Origin: Paramecium tetraurelia
Taxonomy: Eukaryota > Ciliophora > Oligohymenophorea > Peniculida > Parameciidae
Direction: 5' to 3'
Assembly (NCBI RefSeq): GCF_000165425.1
Contig: NW_001799588.1
Span: forward strand, 4,920-68,919
Length of the DNA stretch: 64,000 bases
The translations under genes were made by a program, and so were the position numbers. Of the stretch, positions 9,821 through 50,374 are shown one piece after another; within the stretch, counting starts at the first letter, position 1, and every line of letters starts with the position of its first letter. The notes below the pieces were generated by a model that saw nothing but the letters and a program-made list of their open reading frames with translations, made no database searches and was not told where the DNA came from.

Positions 9821-10009
9821 GTAGACATTTATGTATCGAAAGTTTCTAGGACTGAAAATGCTTTTAAAAAACTACCTATACCTCAAAAGAAATTAAATTC
9901 AAATTATAGTCCTTAAAAATAATACACTCCGAGAAAAAAAGTCATATTTAAAAATGACAACTAAATTTTAAGTAAGCTCTTTTTATTACTTCTAATAATG
10001 AATAGCTGA
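9821..10009 (+). pseudogene. short basic coding relic
   Basis: 62 codons are open, with Lys/Gln-rich composition typical of Paramecium proteins (FKKLPIPQKKLNSNYSPQKQ, then RKKVIFKND), and end at TGA 10007. There is no supported start upstream. It may be the 3' end of a lost gene. Confidence 0.3.
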
Positions 10010-10104: not shown

Positions 10105-12340
10105 TCAAATAATAGTAAAAACAATTTTTTCTATAAATCTTTTTGTATATTCTTAAGGATTTTAAGCGGAAGTATCAAGATCTATTTTTACATTTAAGGC
10201 TTTTTTTGTGACTTATTCAATCCTTTTTTCAGCATTCCATTCTTGTAGGTAATCAATAATTGCAATATGGTAGTATACCCCTTATTCTTTTATTGATGGT
10301 ATACAAGATAATTCTGAATTAAAAAATTTGAAGATCTAAAACTAATATTAAATATTACATCTATTTAAGGTTATATCTATAAGTAAGATGACCAATTCAT
10401 TTTTATAATTAACAAAGAATAATCCATTAGATTTAACTCTGAAAAAAATTTGGAATCTTGAATTAAGCTGTTTTTTAATCTATCTTTAAATTTTTCAGGA
10501 ATAAATAATTTGCCTTCTTCCTCTTTAAAGTCAATATCTTTGAGAGTAGTCTTTGTCAAATCCTTAGTGAAATCATTTTATTTCAAAACTTTTCTTTAAT
10601 ACTCAGATCCTTTTAGGTCATAGGTTCTCATTACATAAGATGATGGAATTTGGAGAGCATTTCTCATCACAATAAATATTTGAGATTCTTATCCCTATAA
10701 TTAAAACAAATTTTACATTTTGTAACACAAACTTAAAGATTCCATAAATTGGGGAGATTAGGGACTCATTTCTATTTAAATGTAGGAAGTACCTGCCCAA
10801 GTTTTTTTGAATTATTAATAATTCTTATTCAACAATTGTTTTGATTAAAAGTTTATTGTCAAAGGTAAAAAAAAAGAACGCTCCTCCCTTTCCACCATCA
10901 GGACCTTTAAAAGAATTGATTTATTCTTAATTAGATATTGGATCAAAAGACTAAGAATAATTATTTATTTTCCTATCTTTTTTTCTCAATTTTTGAAAAA
11001 CTTTTGGAGCATAAATAATAATAGTAGAAGCCATCAATCTGAGTTCAATCTCTAGGTCTTATTCAGGTGGAATAACAAACTGAGCTTGTTCATTAATTTC
11101 CTCCTCAGTTATTTTATCTTGAATTTCTTGAATCTACTTGGATTAAATTTCTGACGTTTGATTGTTTACTTTGTGATTTTTTTTTAATAAATAGCTACCT
11201 TTTGAAGCATTTTCTATGTAATTATCTTATTAAAATATTTATTATATGCTATAAACAATTGTATTAACCTTATCTATGAGCAAAGTTTTAGCTATAACTA
11301 CCAAATTCTGCTCTTCAGATACTAAGGATAATTAATATTAAAATACATAAAGAACTGCCAACTTCCGATTTGGATGAAAGTCGTTTCCAAATTAATAAGA
11401 TTTACCTGTTTATAGTTGGGTCTCGAAGCCTTAATATTGATAATACAAATGGGGTGCATAATTTAGCAGAATTTTCAATAGTGATAAATATTAATAGCCA
11501 TCCCTTTTGAAATTTTGTGCAATTAAGTCCAACTAGAATATAACTTATTGCTTAAGTTAGTTATATACAAAATTAAGCCGTTATGTATGAAGAATAATAT
11601 CGAGTAACTTTTCCTATCAAATTTAAATATCTTTGATTTTCAGGAACAGCCTTTTTAATATACAGCATTGTATAAACTGACATAAAAGTATTTACAAAAA
11701 CCAAAAACAAACCAGCAAAATTGAATCCAGGATTATACTTTAAACTACAAGTGCCAAATAAAGACAATCCATTATAATTAAAAATTTTTGCTATCAAGGT
11801 TACAGATATCATGGTAAACCAAGCAATAACATGAAGAATGAGGCGTAGTTTTTTTTTTGTTGCAAATTAATCCTTTAGAGTTATTCTTACATAAAGACAG
11901 AATATTAAATTATAGGTGATTTCTCCAGCTCCAGCAAATATGCTTACAATTGAATTAATTTAGCAAAATATATCATCACTTAGAGGACTACTCTCATTTA
12001 TTATAAAGTATATGCATGTGCTAAACCAATGAACACATAGGATGGCCTCACAAAAAGAAATAAAGAATATGATATCGCCAGGCATTTTCCAAGTTTTTGG
12101 ATAAATCATAAAACTTAGCATAATAATCATTGTTAAAATGAAAGCTATTATTGCTAATAATTACAAAAATTACTTACGAAAGATGAGAAAAATATATTAG
12201 TCAATAGTCTAAAGTCTTATAGCTTACGATAGCTCCTCATTACTTAAGCCTGAGTTACAATCAACTACCTCTGAATCACTATAAATTCCCTTAACTTAAC
12301 TCATTATTATTAGAATTAAGGCTGCATGCATTATTTACAT
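10105..12340 (-). CDS. 7TM receptor fused to a phosphatidylinositol phosphate kinase (GPCR-PIPK)
   Basis: 721 aa after three introns (11322-11346, 10695-10716, 10336-10358). Residues 1-20 look like a signal peptide. Residues about 50-310 hold a series of hydrophobic helices in 7TM arrangement, with ciliate-typical loops. Residues about 460-720 are a PIPK catalytic domain: glycine loop GGKGGAFFFF, lysine strand KLLIKTI, DLKGS (YDLKGSEYQRK), LKDIDF, the catalytic loop NLMDYSLL, the metal-binding IIDYLQ, and a basic segment EKRIEQVTKK at the activation-loop position. All the expected catalytic residues are present. Known 7TM-PIPK fusions are Dictyostelium RpkA and the oomycete GPCR-PIPKs. Such a protein could couple a cue at the plasma membrane directly to PIP2-type lipid production without a separate G protein; that function is inference. 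The first ATG was taken as start (a second Met is at codon 4). Confidence 0.88.
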
Positions 12341-12862: not shown

Positions 12863-13336
12863 ATGGGTTAAATTTCTTGTTTTTAAGGAAATGAATTAAC
12901 AGAGTTTAATGTATTATTACTTGGCCCATCTGGATCTGGAAAGACAAGAATTGTGACAGAAAAAACTTTAGGACCTACAATTAGTAATGAAAAATTTAAT
13001 TTTATAGAGCTATAAAAGCACTTAATAAAATTGAATGATAACCATGGATTGAATTTTTATGACACCCCTGGGATTCTTAGTTTATTCAAATAATGTCTGA
13101 ATTAGGATATTATACAAAGTGTTGATATCATTGCGTGTTTTCCTAATTCAGAACAATACAAGGACTATATAAAAGAATTATTACAAAATAATACAAAGTT
13201 ATTCAAATAGATTCCATTTTATGATATTCCAGGAGATTTAGACTCAAAGGAGATAAGGAATAAGATTTATTTGTTTATTTTATCATAGAGTAAAAGAAAA
13301 TCAAAAAAACCAAGTTATAATTAAGAAATTGTCTGA
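12863..13336 (+). CDS. small Arf/Ras-type G protein, divergent
   Basis: 157 aa, no intron. The N-terminus MGQISCF fits N-myristoylation plus palmitoylation. It has a P-loop (LLGPSGSGKTRIV) and a DTPG motif in the DxxG position (NFYDTPGIL), but the Thr of switch I and an NKxD base-recognition motif are not clear. The order myristoylated N-terminus, P-loop, DxxG resembles Arf/Arl or SRP-receptor-beta-like proteins. It lacks the C-terminal Cys prenylation box of Ras/Rab. Expected at a membrane. Nucleotide specificity is uncertain because the G4 motif is missing or degenerate. Confidence 0.7.
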
Positions 13337-13382: not shown

Positions 13383-14563
13383 TCATTTTTTTACCATAAT
13401 CTTATGCGGATCAACATTTGATCCACATAATACAATTAAACATGAAAGACGCCCTATAGGATAGTTCATAAAGCCAGCATAAGCTAATGCTGCAGCTCCT
13501 TCAACAATAAGTTTGTGCTCATTTAATAATTTTAGTTAGGCTTCTAATATTTGATCTTCTTTCACTAAAACCCAATCATCAACCAGATGCTTGCAAATTT
13601 CAATCGTGATAGCATTTTCTTCAACTCCACCAGAGGTTCCATCAGATAGAGTGTCAAGCAATTTGTATTCTCCTTTATTACGTAATATCTAATTGTATTT
13701 TTAAATTTACATTGTACATAGCTGCATTATCTTTTGGTTAAACTCCAATAATTTTAGTACCCTTATTTTTTAGATACTTAAAATATAAGGCAATTCCTCC
13801 TATCAAACCACCGCCCCCGCATGAGACAAATATAAAATCGAGTTCTTCATTTTAAGCGTTAAAACTACATAAACATATAGAATTACTATTAATCTATTTC
13901 TTCTCCTATAGTGCAACTACCCAAAATCATATTTATATCATTATAAGGAGAGGCATAAGAGCAATTATGCTTTTCTGCGTATTATCGAGCTTTTTATTCA
14001 CTTTCAACACAGTCCTAGCCTGCATAAATTATGGGACAAGTAATTTCTTTTAATTTATCTCTATTTACATTTTTAGGTACAAATATGATTAAATTAGATT
14101 TATCAAGTTCTTCTTAAGAGTATTATTATTGTTATTATTATAATTCCTAATAATCAGGTTGAGGAGTTGGAGTATTGTATTCGTTTGATTAAATCTATTA
14201 AATTTATTTGTAATCCTGTTAAAAAATTTCACTCTAATTCTTTGTTTCTTCTGAACAACTTTTGTAAGCATAAAAACAAGCTTTTGCAAAATTACCTGTA
14301 CTAGCAACGACAATTTATTGATTTGGCTGATCTTAAAAGTATAGAAAAGCTCCTCTAATTTTAAAACTTCCAGATGTTTAATGACTTTCAAGTTTTAAAT
14401 AAGTTTTATCTTTGATTTTTAGGATTGGTGTATTGATAATTGGAGATATATCTGATTTAAGCGTCTGATGGGCCACTGGAAATTTCTTTTTAACTTTTTT
14501 AAGGAATTCTTATGAGATAGTATCTAAGAGAGGTTTTCTAGAGGTAGAACAATCTAATCCCAT
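13383..14563 (-). CDS. Ser/Thr dehydratase-family PLP enzyme (serine racemase/threonine dehydratase-like)
   Basis: 378 aa after two 22-nt introns (13865-13886, 13689-13710). The PLP-lysine motif is SGSFKIRGA (Lys68). ASTGNFAKA matches the substrate-binding loop (usually SxGNHAQA), SCGGGGLIGG is the phosphate-binding glycine loop, and LCGSNVD is the C-terminal cofactor strand. The fold type II enzymes deaminate or racemise serine and threonine in the cytosol. Odd: a Gln-rich insertion of about 50 residues after ASTGNFAKACFYAYK, with a run of TAA codons read as Gln. In addition the N-terminus MGLDCS could be myristoylated, unusual for the family. The start codon lies only 27 bp from the divergent COX20-like gene. 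Confidence 0.85.
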
Positions 14564-21160: not shown

Positions 21161-22256
21161 ATGAGAATCGCCTTGTGCTTATTAGTCATTTTAGCTGTTG
21201 CTAGTGCTACAACAAAATTCAATTTAGATTATTCTAAGAGGAAGGTCTATGACAGCTGTTTTAGCTGAAGTAGAAGCTAAATTGAAGAACAAATCACCAC
21301 TTGAAGCAATTTTGAATGTTTTAAGAGATTTCAGAGATGCAGTCAATACAGAATAAGTCAGTCATGATGAAATCTACAATATCTAACAAGTTGAATGTGA
21401 TTCTGAGAATTAATTCAGAAGTGCCGAAGTTCAAGATGCTAGCAATGTTCTTAGAGACTCAACAGCTGCTTTAAATGTTGCTTAAACATCAAAAATTAGA
21501 GCTACAAACCAATAAGAAGTCAACCAATAACAATATTTCTCAGCTCAAGAACATTTGACCTCTGTTTAAACTTCCGCTGAAGGTGAAGCTGGATATTTCA
21601 AGAAAAGAGGAAGAGATTATGAAGATGCTCTCCATGCCATTGATGAGGCTTCCGATATTTTGGCTTCCATTTATAGTGGATCAGGATCATTCCTTGAAAT
21701 TAGTAGAGTTGCTAAGAGTATGCTCCAAACAGCTTTCAGTATCAAAGAAACCACCAGATTCGCACCAATCTTCTATGCCTTTGCTTAATTGGCTACATAA
21801 GAAGGATAACTTGATGAATCAGCTCTTGAAAGAGTCGCTTAACTTTTGGAAACCTTAAGAGCCAATATCTAAGAAGCATATAATGATTATGCAGAATCAA
21901 ATGCTGTTTCAGTTGCAGCCTTTAATGACTAAAAAGAAAGATTAGGATAAACAATTGCCAGACTTGAAGCTTAAAATGAAAGACTTTAAAATAAATTAGA
22001 TTCATTGAATTAACAAATTGGATCCTAATCAGCTATTGCTTAAAGAGCTTCAGGAAAACTCTAAAGAAACCAATAACTTTGGGATTAAGCATAAGCCTTA
22101 TGCTCAACTTTTGCTAATGAATACAATTTTGCCACTTAAGCTAGAAGAAATGAAATCTAATTGGTTGCTTAATTAGAAGAACTCGTTGAATCCAGATTTA
22201 ACTAAGTTGATGATGAAAACCATGAAAGAAATTAAAGAATTGCTAGCCATGCTTGA
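21161..22256 (+). pseudogene. trichocyst matrix protein precursor, copy 1, with a +1 frameshift
   Basis: The signal peptide MRIALCLLVILAVASA is followed by TKFNLDYSKRK, and then the frame breaks. Compared with the intact copy at 49274, one extra base lies at 21243-21245 (aaggtctatg where aagtctatg is expected). Removing it opens the rest: MTAVLAEVEAKLKNKSPLEA, GYFKKRGRDYEDALHAIDEA, and so on to RNQRIASHA. The total length exceeds a multiple of 3 by exactly one. The downstream frame is otherwise undamaged over 330 codons, so the lesion is either very recent or a sequencing error. Trichocyst matrix proteins are proteolytically matured and crystallise in the exocytotic trichocyst. No intron. Confidence 0.85.
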
Positions 22257-22306
22257 TTTGATTTATTTCATTTTATTTCCATTAAATTTAAATTTATAAC
22301 AGAAAA

Positions 22307-24103
22307 ATGAGTATGTAACTAACACAAAAACCGAATCCATTTTTTTAAGTCCGCTAACATAGCTAAAACCACAACACAAATACCATAAACTGTTAAAAAA
22401 TGAGAATGTATGTAAACTTCTTTTCTTTAGGAGCATAATTGATTAAATATCACCCATCAAAGGATAATAATAAAAGAGCACTCAAAGAGATTCATTTTAT
22501 TAAGTTAAAGGTCAATCTGGATCTGCAGCCTGTCTTCTCTCTAACAAAACATTCCCAAGTAGATTCTTAGATAGTTTATATACATCCTTAAATTATACTC
22601 AGGAAAGTAATGTTGAAAAAAAGAATGGTACTTTGAATAAAGGACAAAAACTCAACTTTGAAACACTCAAAGATCATTTTAAATTTGTATATGATTACTT
22701 AGATGATTTCAAATAACAATTCGATAAAGTTATATAAGCATAAATTGATTAAGTTGTTTAAGTTTTGAAATCAGCTTCTTAATTATCAAATGCCTTAATA
22801 GAAGAAAACGCTTAGATTAAAAGCTAGTTAAGCACTGTTGATATAAATAAATTTTAATCACATCTGGAATAGTAAGAATTGAAGATTTCTCAAATTAACA
22901 GTGAAAATAATCAACTAAAATGTTAAATAAATAAATTATAGGAGGAAAATTAAAAATTAAAAGATGGAATCTTGCATTCTGAAAAAATGTAGTAAGAAGC
23001 AGTCACAAAAAATGATAAAGAGAATGTAATTTCTAATAACAATAAAGGAAAATACACTTAAAGAGAATTAAGCTATAAATTTGAATAAGCAGAAATTAAA
23101 TTATTGACTCTTTAAATAAGCAACGATTAACTTAAATAACAATTATAACATTACTAATTAGATTAGCAAACTATTTCATAAATGAAAGATACCATATCTA
23201 CTCTAGAACTTAAATCCTAAAGTTTATTGAATCAAAAAGATGCATTACAATAAGAAAATGATCTTTTAAATTAAAAAGTAGAAAATCTCGAAAAATAATG
23301 TAAAGACAAATAGAAGACCTAGGAATTCTTGATTTATCAAAATTCGTTAGAAAATGAATTAATAAAGTTTAAATAAGAATAGGCCCAGAGTCATTAGACT
23401 ATTTTATCCTTAAACAATACGATTTAATAGTTAAAGGAATAGATTAATATATTTAGAACATAAAAAGATTAAGCCGAAGTATCAATATAAAATATAGTTA
23501 GAATGCTTTTCAATTAGAGTTAGTATAATCATAAAATGAATTATAATAAGCTACTGCTAGATATTAAGTTTTGTGGCAAGAAATATCTGAAATGAAGGAT
23601 AGATTAGAATAAAGAAAAATTGAAGAAGATAGCCATTACATGTTATCTAATGCAGAAAAAGTATTATTTGAAACTTAAATTACTAATCTGAATGACAAGA
23701 TCAAGGAATATGAATAAATTTTATTACAAAATGACTCAAAAATAAAGTTTAAAAATTATTAATCTTTTTAGGTCCTTAGAATTATAGATAAATTAGATTT
23801 AATAAGAGAAGGAGAACTACAAATAGCAATTAGAAAAGAATGGATCTTTAAGCAGCAAGTCTTTAGATTTCTAAGAGCAATAATGGAAGATCACACAATT
23901 AAGTAGATATTATCATATAATAGATAAAAGATTTAATCATTAATAAAAAAGATAAAGAACTATCAAAAAAGTCAGAAGAATTAGCTTAATTTAAATAGGG
24001 ATATGATTTGCAGATGAAAAAGAATTAAAATTTAGAAGGAAAGATCCTTTAATTAATGGAATAGGAGATTAAGATCAATAGTAATTTGATAAAAAAGCCA
24101 TGA
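22307..24103 (+). CDS. large coiled-coil protein
   Basis: About 564 aa with introns 22408-22430, 23479-23501 and 23747-23771. A fourth step is needed near 23856: either a 31-nt GT..AAG intron or a -2 indel. With the 31-nt intron the spliced length is a multiple of 3. The N-terminal 150 residues are polar (VRQHSQNHNTNTINCQKMRM; NKTFPSRFLDSLYTSLNY) and the rest is long coiled coil (LEQQELKISQINSENNQLK; NDQLKQQLQHYQLDQQTISQ). It ends KINSNLIKKP. It resembles generic centrosomal or basal-body coiled-coil proteins, but no family is identified. It starts 50 bp downstream of the trichocyst copy 1 stop. Confidence 0.65.
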
Positions 24104-38978: not shown

Positions 38979-40693
38979 TCAAATATCTTATTCATTATTT
39001 AAGAATGATGGTTACCCAGTACCTGCTAACAATCTCTACCATGCTATATTTGATGGCTAAATATATATAAGATATGAATTACTGTAATTCTATTGGCATA
39101 ATTTCCTGAATTCATTTCATTCAATGGAATCATGCATGTCTTATTGCTGACATGACCAACTGCAAATCCAGTGAAACCAGCCATTGAAGCGTGAATTGCA
39201 TTTTAAGCCAATTAACTGCATAGTTTAGAATCTAATGAATTGGCTTTACCAGCTCTGACCATGTATTAAGGATCGATGTATTTGACTTCAGCATTTAAAC
39301 CTTTTTCTCTGGTGAACTCTAAAATAGCATTCTTCAAGAATAATCCAATGTCTCCTTACTTAACATTTCCAGAAGCATCTCTACCTTTGTCATTGATCTT
39401 GCAATCTCTCAAAGAAGCAGCAGCTCCTTCAGCTACTACTATCACACAAGTTCCTTTGAGTTACAGTCTTGAATACACGTATTATAATAATCCTTTTTCT
39501 CCATAGACATCGAATTCAAATTCAGGAACCAAACATATATTCACACTTCTAAAGGCCAAGGATGCATTCAAAGCCAAAAATCCTGTATGTGAACCCCAAA
39601 GTCTCACAATTCCAACTGAATATTTTTTAGAATGAGTTTCTTGATATGCTGCTTTTAAAGGATTCTAAGCTTCCTTTTAAATGGTTAAATAATAAGATTA
39701 CTTCAATTGCAGTCTCAAATCCAAATGATTTGTCTATGATTGGTATCTCATTTTCAATACTTTTGGGAATAACTACAATACTAATTTTGAGATTTCTGGT
39801 TTTAATGATTTCATGTAATTATTCAGCACTCTTCATACAACCCAATCCACCAATGAGATAAACTTAATTAATTCCATTTTTAGCCAATTCATCCACTATC
39901 AACTCACCATCAAATTTAGATCTGGCTGTTCCCAAAAAGCAACCTCCTTAATGATGAATAGTCTTCACTATTTTTGGATCTAATTTTAACCAATCATTAT
40001 TGTAGATTCCATTGTATCCATATTTAGCACCAAATATAGTCTATACTTTGTAATTGTAAAATAAACACATTGTTAATTCTCTGATAATGACATTCAATCC
40101 AGGCAACAAACCTCCTACGACTACAATGCCTGCTTTGACTTCATCTGGACTAAATAATAAATGTTTTCTTGGACCAGATCTAAGCCATCTCTTTGTTCTT
40201 GATAATAAATCATTGGGTCCAAAGTTAGGGTGTTCTAAATTAATGAGATAATTTTACAAAGGATATAGCAATCATGATTGACAAAAGCAGTCTCAGGGAG
40301 AAAACCTTCACCACCAAACACACTTCTATAATTCGAATTTCCAAGCATGGGATTTACATTCAATGGTAATACTTAGAGTTTGAGATCATAAGCAAGATTA
40401 GAAACTCTTTCAATCTCACAAGTAATTTCTTCTAAATTTTTTAATTCTTTGACTAATTCATTTTCATTTGCATTTTTTGCCATCAACTTATTAATTGCAT
40501 GTTTTTTAATTGGTCTTTAAGGAGATGAAGGAGCAGATGCAGTTGCAGACATATTCTCTTCAAAAACATGTTGAGCAGTTTCAGAGCACCCTTTTCTTAA
40601 AGCATTAAAGGCAGCAGCCCCGATTGTACCCAAGGCTAATGAGGCTAATAAATACAAGGGATTGATGGTTTGGGTAAGATTTTTTGATTCCAT
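38979..40693 (-). CDS. phosphofructokinase homologue, membrane-anchored, probably inactive
   Basis: 545 aa after three introns (40235-40257, 39674-39701, 39057-39082). A hydrophobic N-terminal segment ([19 protein letters not shown]) precedes a PFK fold: [86 protein letters not shown] and VVVAEGAA. Active PFKs have GGDxS, PKTIDNDI and MGRxxGF at these places. Here the GGD Asp is Leu, TIDND is SIENE, and the Arg of MGR is Ser. The catalytic Asp is therefore replaced by Glu and substrate contacts are missing. Likely a regulatory pseudoenzyme on a membrane. Start codon 10 bp from the dynein gene. Confidence 0.82.
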
Positions 40694-40703
40694 TAATTAA
40701 TAA
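40694..40703. promoter_or_regulatory. 10-bp divergent start-to-start spacer
   Basis: Only taattaataa lies between the ATG of the PFK-like gene (-) and the ATG of the dynein intermediate chain (+). This is the shortest spacer in the window. Confidence 0.45.
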
Positions 40704-43536
40704 ATGTAGTCGATTTCATCTGAGGTACTAAAAGCAGGAGTAACTAAATCTAACATCCGTTCTAATGTGACAGCCAAGAGGTACACTCAATATGTATATG
40801 TAGACCGAATCAATTAGGTGGAGGCAGAACTTAATTGGGTCCTCCTTAGACTGGGAAGGATACTCAATAATCATCATAGGATAATGTGATAGTGAAGTAT
40901 AAAGATAGCATAGTAACACCAAAAGAGTAAGATATTGATATGAAAATAGATTGATTACTAAGAGATTCCTATAATTGGCTGAACAGTTGAAGTAGAGAGG
41001 AAGAATAGAAACTAAAATAATTACAGAAACCGGCTGATACAAAAGTGAGTGCGAGTGTTATGGATAGCAATATGAAATCATTCCATCAGAGTGCTGTACT
41101 ATTAATAAAGTATAACAGGATAAATCATCGAATTCAGATTTGAAAGTTTCATCTTCCAATAATCCAGAGAGGAGCAGTTTTGTGGAATCTAAACAGTCAG
41201 ACACATACTCTGATTCAGATTCTAAAAGAGATCAATCTGAATAACAAGAGAAGAAACCCAAATAGAAGAAAGGTTTGAAAGAAGAGGACTTGGAAGAGAA
41301 TATCCCTATTAATTTAAGTGAAACTCCAACTCAATGTTTAATGTTTATGTAATTAATGATTATAATGTATAGACCATCCTCATTTGTGAATAGTGAGTAA
41401 GGCAAGAAAACTGGTTAGATTCAAAGAACCCAATAATATGAATAATTCATCATTGAGAAAATTGGAAGTGACAATTTTCACAAAGAGGTTTGCTTAAACT
41501 TTCAATTACATACAAAAACATAAGATACAGTAATGTAACAAGATTGAGAAGAATGACACTGGAGCATTTACAGCAGTTTGGGATTTGTATGATGCTTCAA
41601 TAACTGATCAATTGAATGAATTCGAAATATTACAAGAAGAGATCAAGTCAAGCATTGAGAATGAGTATAAATAATTGAATAAGAACCCTTATTTCTTATT
41701 GCCTACAGAATTGGAAGCAATTAAAATACATGCTGAAAGACCTGTATTGGGTAAGGAAACAGCTGAGAAATCATAAAGGTAAAACAAGAAGTGGAATTGC
41801 AGCCCAATACTAAATAATAACCTATCAATAATTTGAGTGGTGGATTAACTGGACAAGGGGGAGATGAGAGAATATAAGACAGTTCATCTAGTCATACTGG
41901 TACTAAAGGTGTTACTAATATGGGATCTTAATAAGTGAATATCCAATAGCAAGTAACTAAGAGTCATGGAAAGACAAGCAATCCTCTACCTGAATAATAA
42001 TAGAAATAGTATGAATAAAAATAGGATGAATAGGATGTTAAGGAGGAAGAATACATGAAGTAATATGTCTAAAAAACCAATTCTCAAATTAGTGAACAAG
42101 AATAGATCATTTATTAGAGTCAATAAGTGCAAACCAGTTTGAAATATGTGGAAAGAATTCTTAACCAGAATCTCTATCATAAAATAATATATTCAATATA
42201 GAAACTATCCAGAAGTCAAGTTTGAGAAGATGACATTGAATGAAGATCCTAAATAGAGAGGAGGAGCATTCAAAAAGGAATTTCTAAAATAAATTAGATG
42301 ACGAGGAAGTTGTTGAAAAGAAATAATAAGATCCCATTACATAATTATTTTCATATAAATGCTAATTAAGTGAACAATGCAAAGTAACCAGTGCCGATTG
42401 GAATCCAGTCAATAAAGATTTATTGGCTGTTTCATATGGCAATAGAGAAACCTCAGATGGACACATTATGTTTTGGACGCCTAAAGAACCCTACATACCC
42501 TGAACGTATCATTACTTATCCATCCAAATTTAATTGTTGTAAGTTCTCAGAAAGCTAGCCCAATCTCATTGCTGCAGGAACTGTTGATGGTATTGTAGCT
42601 GTATGGGATATCAGAAGAAAGTCCAATAAACCTATTACTGAAAATAAAGAAATGGCTGGGAAACATAGTGATTCTGTTTGGGAAGTTTAGTGGGTTGGAA
42701 AAGGAGCTAAAGGAACAGATAAGGGAGAATCCCTTGTCAGTATTAGTTAGTGATAGTAGAATTGTTGAATGGTCAATGAAGAAGGGATTGGAATATACTA
42801 ATTTAATGAATCTCAAAAGAGTTGGTTCAATCATCTTAAAAGGAAAACTTATAAGAAGGAGTCAATTTTAGAATGTCAGCTGGATTTTCCTTTGATTTCT
42901 TTATAAAGAGAATCAGCCATGTATTTAGCTGCCACTGAAGATGGTACTGTTCATAGATGCTCAAAATCATATACAGAATAATATTTGGATAATTACTTTT
43001 GGACATTCAGGACCAGTTTATAAGGTTAGATGTAATCCTTTCTTTGGTGATATCTTCTTAACTTGTAGTGCCGATTGGTCATGCAAATTATGGAACTGGA
43101 CTGAAGGGAGTTACCCAAAGCCAATTTCTAAGTATTTATAATTTGAATTATTAAGCAATAAAACTTATAAGACGAAGTGTTAGACTTTGAATGGTCTCCT
43201 CACACTTCTGTATTATTCGCATCAGTTTGCAAGGATGGTAGATTGGAAACTATGGGACTTAACCAAGAATAATATGTTAGATCCATACTTTACCATTATG
43301 CCCTAGGATTAATAAATTTGGCCAGCCAAAACTATGGTCAGATTTGCTCACAACAGTCCAGTGCTTATTACTGGGGATGCTAGAGGTGATATTAATGCTT
43401 ATAGATTATATGGTATATTCGTATTTGTATTGTGTTAGGCTATGAGGATAATGATCCATTATAAGAGGAAGAGAAGTTGAGAAAATTGTTATACCCCAGT
43501 GGATATTCAAAGGGGCAAAAGGAATAAAAGGATTGA
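40704..43536 (+). pseudogene. DNAI1: axonemal dynein intermediate chain (DNAI1/IC1-like) with several frameshifts
   Basis: The protein can be followed over about 900 residues only by changing frame. Recognisable parts are the N-terminal VYVDRINQVEAELN, TKRFAQTFNYIQKH, and the WD region: VTSADWNPVNKDLLAVSYGN, LKNPTYPERIITYPSKFNCC, GTVDGIVAVWDIRRK, YLAATEDGTVHRCSKSYTEQ, FGHSGPVYKVRCNPFFGD, TCSADWSCKLWNW, LITGDARGDINAYRL. Real introns are 42821-42842 and 43413-43438. Single extra bases break it at 42480/1, about 42747, about 42900 (T run), 42997-43000 (T run) and about 43246, plus others in the N-terminal half. Coding sequence between lesions is highly conserved. Outer-arm dynein intermediate chain of cilia. 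Decayed duplicate or indel-rich assembly cannot be told apart here. Confidence 0.8.
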
Positions 43537-49273: not shown

Positions 49274-50374
49274 ATGAAATTGATTGCAACATTATTAGTT
49301 GTGTTAGTTTGCGTCAGTGCTGCTCCAAGAAATCCATTTGACTATTCAAAGAAGAGATCTTTGACAGCAGTCATGGCTGAAGTTGAAGCAAAATTGAGCA
49401 ACAAGTCACCACTTGATGCCATCTTGAATGTCTTGAGAGATTTCAGAGATGCAGTCAACACTGAATAAGTCAATCACGATGAAATCTATAACACATAATA
49501 AGCTGAATGTGCTTCTGAAAATGAATTCAGATCCAGATAAGTCTAAGATGCTCAAACAGTCTTGAGAGATTCCACTGCTGCCTTGAACGTCTGCAACACA
49601 TCCAAGATCAGAACAACCAACGTCTAAGAAGTCAACTAATAATAATACTTCTCAGCTTAAGAACACTTGACCTCAGTTTTGAGTGCTGCTGAATCAGAAG
49701 CCGGATATTTCAAGAGAAGAGGAAGAGATTATGAAGACGCTCTCCACGCCATCGATGAAGCCTAAGATATCTTAGCCACCATCTACAGTGGATCAGGATC
49801 ATTCGCTGAAATCAGCAGAGTTTCAAAGAGCATGCTCTAAACTGCCTTCAACATCAAGGAAACAGCCAAATTCGCCCCAATCTTCTATGCCTTTGCTTAA
49901 TTGGCTGCCTAAGAAGGATAACTCGACGAATCAGCTCTTGAAAGAGTTGCCTAACTTTTGGACACCTTGAGATCCAACATCCAAGAAGCTTACAACGATT
50001 ATGCATCCTCAAATGCTGCCTCAGTTGCTGCCTTCAACGACTAAAAGGAAAGAATTGGATAAACCATCGCCAGACTTGAAGCCTAAAACGAAAGACTTTA
50101 AAACAAGTTAACCAACTTAGTTCAATGCATTGGAACTCAATCAGCCATTGCTTAAACCGCCTCAGGCAAACTCTAAAGAAACTAATAACTTTGGGACTAA
50201 GCCTAAACCTTATGCTCAACCTTTTCCAACGAATACAACTATGCCACCTAAGCCAGAAGAAACGAACTCTAATTGGTTGCTCAATTGGAAGAGATGGTTG
50301 CTGAAAGATTCGACTAAGTTGAAGATTAAAATCACGAAAGAAACCAAAGACTCGCTTCATCAGTTGGATTTTGA
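49274..50374 (+). CDS. trichocyst matrix protein precursor, copy 2 (intact)
   Basis: 366 aa, no intron. Signal peptide MKLIATLLVVLVCVSA, then the prosegment APRNPFDYSKKRSLTAVMAE and the mature helical segments: LDAILNVLRDFRDAVNTEQV, GYFKRRGRDYEDALHAIDEA, KFAPIFYAFAQLAAQEGQL and RNELQLVAQLEEMVAERFDQ. Almost the same protein as copy 1 at 21161 but without the frameshift. Codons end in C or G far more often than in neighbouring genes, as expected for a very abundant protein. The long central coiled-coil structure and repeated Gln/Ala pattern fit trichocyst matrix proteins, which form the crystalline core released at exocytosis. Confidence 0.92.

Follow-up and report, generated by a model that had tools for sequence, protein, structure and literature searches.

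The gene at 12340-10105 on the minus strand of the window, a 64,000-nucleotide stretch of Paramecium tetraurelia DNA, very probably encodes a type IV PIPK (GPCR-PIPK), in identity as well as in architecture. It is an ordinary member of a family already known from Paramecium as well as from slime moulds and water moulds, and no new kind of system. The window lies at C197:4920-68919 of genome G000 (69 Mb, 231 contigs). The gene has five exons and four introns and was translated with ciliate code 6, in which TAA and TAG encode glutamine and TGA is the stop. It gives a single frame of 713 aa that ends with TGA at 10107-10105. The protein consists, in this order, of a signal peptide, seven hydrophobic segments, a linker and a PIP-kinase domain. 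On the sequence comparisons made here, the match to the family is far beyond chance, with an E-value of 8.8e-46 for Pfam PIP5K and 54% and 61% identity in the 7TM and kinase halves, respectively, to two full-length paralogs, L033 (contig C26) and L036 (contig C13).

Re-translation recovered the coordinates, strand and single frame of the first-pass annotation, and its model of three introns and 721 codons was reproduced exactly. However, this model had overlooked a fourth intron, and the length was corrected to 713 aa by comparison with L033 and L036. Both paralogs carry an intron after codon 52 in phase 1, and the alignment of the 721-aa reading shows an eight-residue insert at this site, at the start of TM1. 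The corresponding segment of the window gene, intron 1 (12177-12154, GTAAGTAATTTTTGTAATTATTAG), is 24 nt long, a multiple of three (3n), and contains zero in-frame TGA codons; thus, plain translation passes straight through it. When it was removed, the 8-aa gap closed and TM1 aligned gap-free with the paralogs. From its position and phase in the paralogs, we infer that 12177-12154 is a true fourth intron. Once it was included, all four introns had the same position and phase in the three genes (3/3), with 2 of the 12 placements (intron 1 of the window gene and intron 2 of L036) leaning on the paralogs.

In the resulting model, exon 1 (12178-12340) encodes the putative signal peptide (residues 1-19, hydrophobic), a short ecto region and the start of TM1. 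Exon 2 (11347-12153) encodes the rest of TM1, TM2 to TM7 with a PGD motif at TM2, the cysteines C118 and C190, and the start of the cytoplasmic linker. Intron 2 (11322-11346, 25 nt) is followed by exon 3 (10717-11321), which carries the linker and the N-lobe of the kinase (GGKGGAF, LLIKT). Intron 3 (10695-10716, 22 nt) precedes exon 4 (10359-10694), in which DLKGS (residues 551-555, 10619-10605) and MDYSLL (residues 615-620, 10427-10410) are located. Exon 5 (10105-10335), downstream of intron 4 (10336-10358, 23 nt), encodes IID (residues 663-665) and the activation loop EKRIEQVTK (residues 673-681).

The model received mixed support from a homemade coding-score gene finder, whose intron penalties were lowered afterwards for a second run. 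With the first penalty, it took 11346-11322 and 10716-10695 and overran the third intron of the first-pass model to a stop at 9942. With the lower penalties, it returned all three introns of that model and the stop at 10105, and started at a later in-frame ATG at 12304. Intron 1 was never taken in any run. Intron 2 of L036 was left unspliced at one penalty and spliced at zero penalty. The GTA...TAG stretches at 12243-12209, 12227-12209 and 10792-10772 were considered as introns and rejected, because the paralogs code through these positions without a gap. Two 24-nt introns in this gene group, 12177-12154 of the window gene and the linker intron of L036, are 3n in length and free of in-frame TGA; 3n introns in Paramecium are described as being under strong evolutionary pressure (PMC5014332).

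When run over the whole window, the gene finder wrongly merged the type IV PIPK gene with its upstream neighbour. This neighbour, on the same strand at about 13387-14563 (minus), is a predicted pyridoxal-phosphate-dependent enzyme (Pfam PALP, 2.1e-47). A divergent ORF at 12863-13336 (plus) has a P-loop and is GTPase-like (Pfam MMR_HSR1, E 1.4e-4, 22.4 bits against a cut-off of 21.9). Farther away, a phosphofructokinase is predicted at 38979-40756 (minus; Pfam PFK, 4.9e-50). Two similar proteins encoded at 49274-50374 (plus) and 21249-24017 (plus) resemble trichocyst matrix proteins; the latter gene model is probably a fusion. Pfam gave nothing above cut-off for the product of 49274-50374.

The first-pass annotation had placed the 7TM part and the kinase in a single gene, and both the linker intron and the pattern of selection bear this out. 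Intron 2 lies within the linker that joins the two halves and is common to all three genes. The reading frame is intact over all five exons in the window gene, L033 and L036 alike. In a search of the genome with the 7TM half, all 8 matches (8/8; on C197, the contig of the window, and on C26, C13, C169, C47 and C212) adjoin kinase matches. It could be argued that two adjacent genes, one for the 7TM part and one for the kinase, were wrongly joined through read-through, since splicing is known here by inference from sequence. We regard this as extremely improbable, given the linker intron shared in position and phase by the three genes, the frame unbroken through five exons and the kinase matches adjoining each of the 7TM matches.

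Both halves are under purifying selection in the L033-L036 pair. The dN/dS was 0.067 over 265 columns of the 7TM part and 0.071 over 303 columns of the kinase; the linker (114 columns) and the first 47 residues (45 columns) gave higher values of 0.268 and 0.240, respectively. In comparisons with the window gene, synonymous sites were saturated in 4 of 8 cases, and the others ranged from 0.108 to 0.943 on a dS of 1.0 to 2.6; owing to this saturation and high dS, these values were not relied on. Identity of the window gene to the two paralogs in the linker was 19-23%. The linker contains a degenerate LR(x)9GI motif at residues 337-349 (11245-11283), which reads LLIDKVNTIVYSI and retains 2 of the 4 key residues (LL...SI); L033 and L036 have LKFDQVNTIIFGI, with 3 of 4.

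We then consider the N-terminal half. By hydropathy alone, with the threshold set to 0.95 after an earlier hydropathy result, a signal peptide and seven segments were found in all three genes. Raising the threshold to 1.0 removed one segment from L036 and added one, in the linker, to the window gene. Lysine and arginine made up 18/79, 22/82 and 22/83 residues of the presumed inside loops of the window gene, L033 and L036, respectively, against 5/86, 4/81 and 5/79 residues of the presumed outside loops. This excess of positive charge places the kinase in the cytosol and the N-terminus outside. C118, located before TM3, is conserved in 13 of the 15 type IV members of the genome, and C190, in extracellular loop 2, in 12 of 15. 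For all nine of its Tetrahymena GPCR candidates, PMC3226668 reports a cysteine conserved in extracellular loops 1 and 2. The assignment of the N-terminal half as 7TM, which the first-pass annotation had proposed, is thus based on its hydropathy, its charge topology and the GPCR-type pair of cysteines. No Pfam GPCR family scored above cut-off when the 721-aa reading, the trimmed half or the 713-aa protein was searched, which in part speaks against that proposal.

The nearest Pfam candidate was Frizzled (PF01534), which reached 15.7 bits (E 0.0091; cut-off 22.3) on the 721-aa reading with intron 1 kept; on the corrected 713-aa protein, no Frizzled match was listed at E up to 0.1. Among the 7TM halves of the family, 1 of 11 matched Frizzled (E 0.029, trimmed half). 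A family 7TM profile built from 11 of the 15 members (L017, L018, L025 and L026 were left out) retrieved only Frizzled-4 entries from PDB, with E-values of 0.18 and 1.9. The reversed profile of the same 11 sequences, used as a control, matched six PDB sequences with a best E of 0.093. Because the reversed profile scored a better E than the forward one, the Frizzled-4 match is no evidence, and a Frizzled affinity of the 7TM half was rejected. AlphaFold without an alignment gave a mean pLDDT of 42.9, too low to be informative, for both constructs, the 331-aa product of exon 1 with intron 1 retained and the 268-aa TM1-TM7 piece. A search of the 69 Mb genome with the Dicty_CAR profile, carried out without a positive control, gave no match.

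The kinase half is readily recognized. The PIPK core claimed earlier was confirmed by the Pfam PIP5K profile (156.9 bits on the 713-aa protein, cut-off 27), and the motifs GGKGGAF, DLKGS, MDYSLL and IID were all found again in the re-translated protein. With the 721-aa reading as query and E-values up to 10 admitted, a PDB search matched 22 sequences, all of them PIP kinases (best E 3.4e-19). Besides PI5P4K type 2 (alpha, beta and gamma), they include PIP5K type I alpha and one PI3P 5-kinase; the type 2 beta and gamma enzymes ranked at the top, ahead of the others including PIP5K type I alpha. In the family alignment, K484, D551, K553, G554, S555, D616 and D665 are identical in 15/15 members, as are K674 and E677 of the activation loop. 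The (di)lysine position of this loop is KR instead of KK in the window gene. The N-lobe lysine motif is LIK where PMC3823935 names IIK; nothing was seen that sets the gene apart in kind from the ciliate type IV PIPKs. No confirmed relative of the window kinase was found in the viral contigs. Animal type I/II PIP kinases have the catalytic core in common with the window gene; they are not known to have a transmembrane half.

To place the gene among its relatives, the PIP5K matches in the genome (65 in total) were sorted manually into 31 loci, the window among them. These comprise 15 type IV PIPKs, 15 other PIPKs and one truncated copy (L034 on C109). A locus was assigned to type IV when its gene model showed hydrophobic segments ahead of the kinase; a crude count gave 4 to 9 per model, and several of these models have incomplete or hand-cropped ends. 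Models of the 15 other PIPKs had 0 to 4 segments at a stricter threshold; therefore, segment count alone cannot split the two groups. A tree of 30 kinase domains was constructed without L034, with long branches flagged. In this tree, 11 of the 15 type IV members form one starred clade (100/99), and the window gene groups with L033 and L036 (100/99). L017, L018, L025 and L026 fall together at 90/92, unstarred, outside the main type IV clade. A separate origin of these four is possible; the starred branches also fit a single origin for all 15.

L034 (G000:C109:211500-217300) is an incomplete duplicate that covers 3′ sequence of L033 and the flank downstream of it, with 94.5% and 96.1% identity over 400 and 951 bases. 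Its PIP5K match begins at profile position 62, and the glycine loop is thus absent. No 7TM match was found on contig C109 in the genome search.

The family in P. tetraurelia has been described before. According to the account of Leondaritis et al. 2013 (PMC3823935), the organism has 15 type IV PIPKs (the PtPIPK2 group). Eleven of these share an origin, whereas the remaining subgroup (PtPIPK2a, b, c and e) was rejected from the ciliate clade. Here too, 15 members were found, with 4 of them outside the clade formed by the other 11, and L017, L018, L025 and L026 resemble PtPIPK2a, b, c and e in their position outside the main clade. From this agreement in counts, it is likely that the window gene or its direct ortholog has already been catalogued. 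As far as the same paper describes them, Tetrahymena TtPIPK2a-c and the PtPIPK2 proteins combine a TM region with a PIPK and have MDYSL and IID as in the window gene, and TtPIPK2a has a signal peptide, as the window gene likewise appears to have.

The first-pass annotation had likened this ciliate 7TM-PIPK fusion to Dictyostelium RpkA and the oomycete GPCR-PIPKs, a comparison that holds for both architecture and catalytic motifs. By their published descriptions, RpkA (PMC3206951) and the oomycete proteins (PMC5784254) have a 7TM part, a linker and a C-terminal PIPK with the catalytic motifs, as has the window gene. LR(x)9GI, degenerate in the window gene, is given as present in all 223 oomycete members and as missing from 9 of the 60 models outside the oomycetes, mostly ciliate ones (PMC5784254).

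The protein is likely a signal-regulated PI(4)P 5-kinase, as predicted from sequence. The 5-kinase assignment follows from the glutamate in the activation loop, a residue from which Leondaritis et al. 2013 (PMC3823935) argued for 5-kinase activity of ciliate PIPKs. In the proposed mechanism, the 7TM part would sense an external or vesicle-lumen signal, which would alter where the tethered kinase sits or how active it is; the kinase would then phosphorylate PI4P at the 5 position and produce PI(4,5)P2 locally. We consider it somewhat more probable than not that the kinase is controlled by its own 7TM part. The first-pass annotation had proposed that phosphoinositides are made directly on activation. 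PMC12716839 describes experimental support for a role of the family in phospholipid signalling as missing, and PMC6033456 presents direct activation as one among several speculative models.

A constitutively active kinase, for which the seven helices serve as a membrane anchor or targeting module and not as a receptor, would likewise be held at the membrane. No family member has a known ligand according to PMC12716839, and the long, fast-evolving linker (19-23% identity between the window gene and the two paralogs) does not suggest tight mechanical coupling. However, purifying selection in the L033-L036 pair acts as strongly on the 7TM part as on the kinase, the GPCR-type cysteine pair is kept in the family, and seven conserved helices are not obviously needed for a plain anchor. 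We therefore consider a mere anchor rather unlikely and prefer control of the kinase by the 7TM part.

The 7TM part might instead act as a canonical GPCR that couples to a heterotrimeric G protein, and the kinase might then be a regulator or bystander. In Tetrahymena, pertussis-toxin-sensitive binding of GTP-gamma-S, lowered by knockout of another putative GPCR, was reported (PMC3226668). An exon-by-exon search of the 69 Mb genome, in which no positive control scored above cut-off among 14 control genomes, gave no G-alpha above cut-off, and all five weak matches, at 23.7-35.5 bits, overlap loci with Arf scores of 118.8-220.6 bits. RGS gave no match in the same kind of search, again with no positive control above cut-off among the 14 control genomes. 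These results make signalling by way of a G protein quite improbable to us and favour, though they do not establish, direct coupling between the 7TM part and the kinase. Some organisms with GPCR-PIPKs are reported to have no or few G-alpha subunits (PMC5784254). A broader proposal is that, in an organism in which no G-alpha subunit was detected, the 15 receptors act as self-contained sensors: PI(4,5)P2, produced locally by the attached kinase, would be their sole output, and no G protein would take part in this GPCR-shaped route. We offer it only tentatively and consider it less probable than not.

Should the kinase indeed be controlled by the receptor half, the family would provide an example of a membrane receptor that itself produces PI(4,5)P2 and bypasses G proteins. 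Ciliates such as this one, which possibly lacks G-alpha, would be a good test ground for the question of direct signalling from receptor to PI(4,5)P2.
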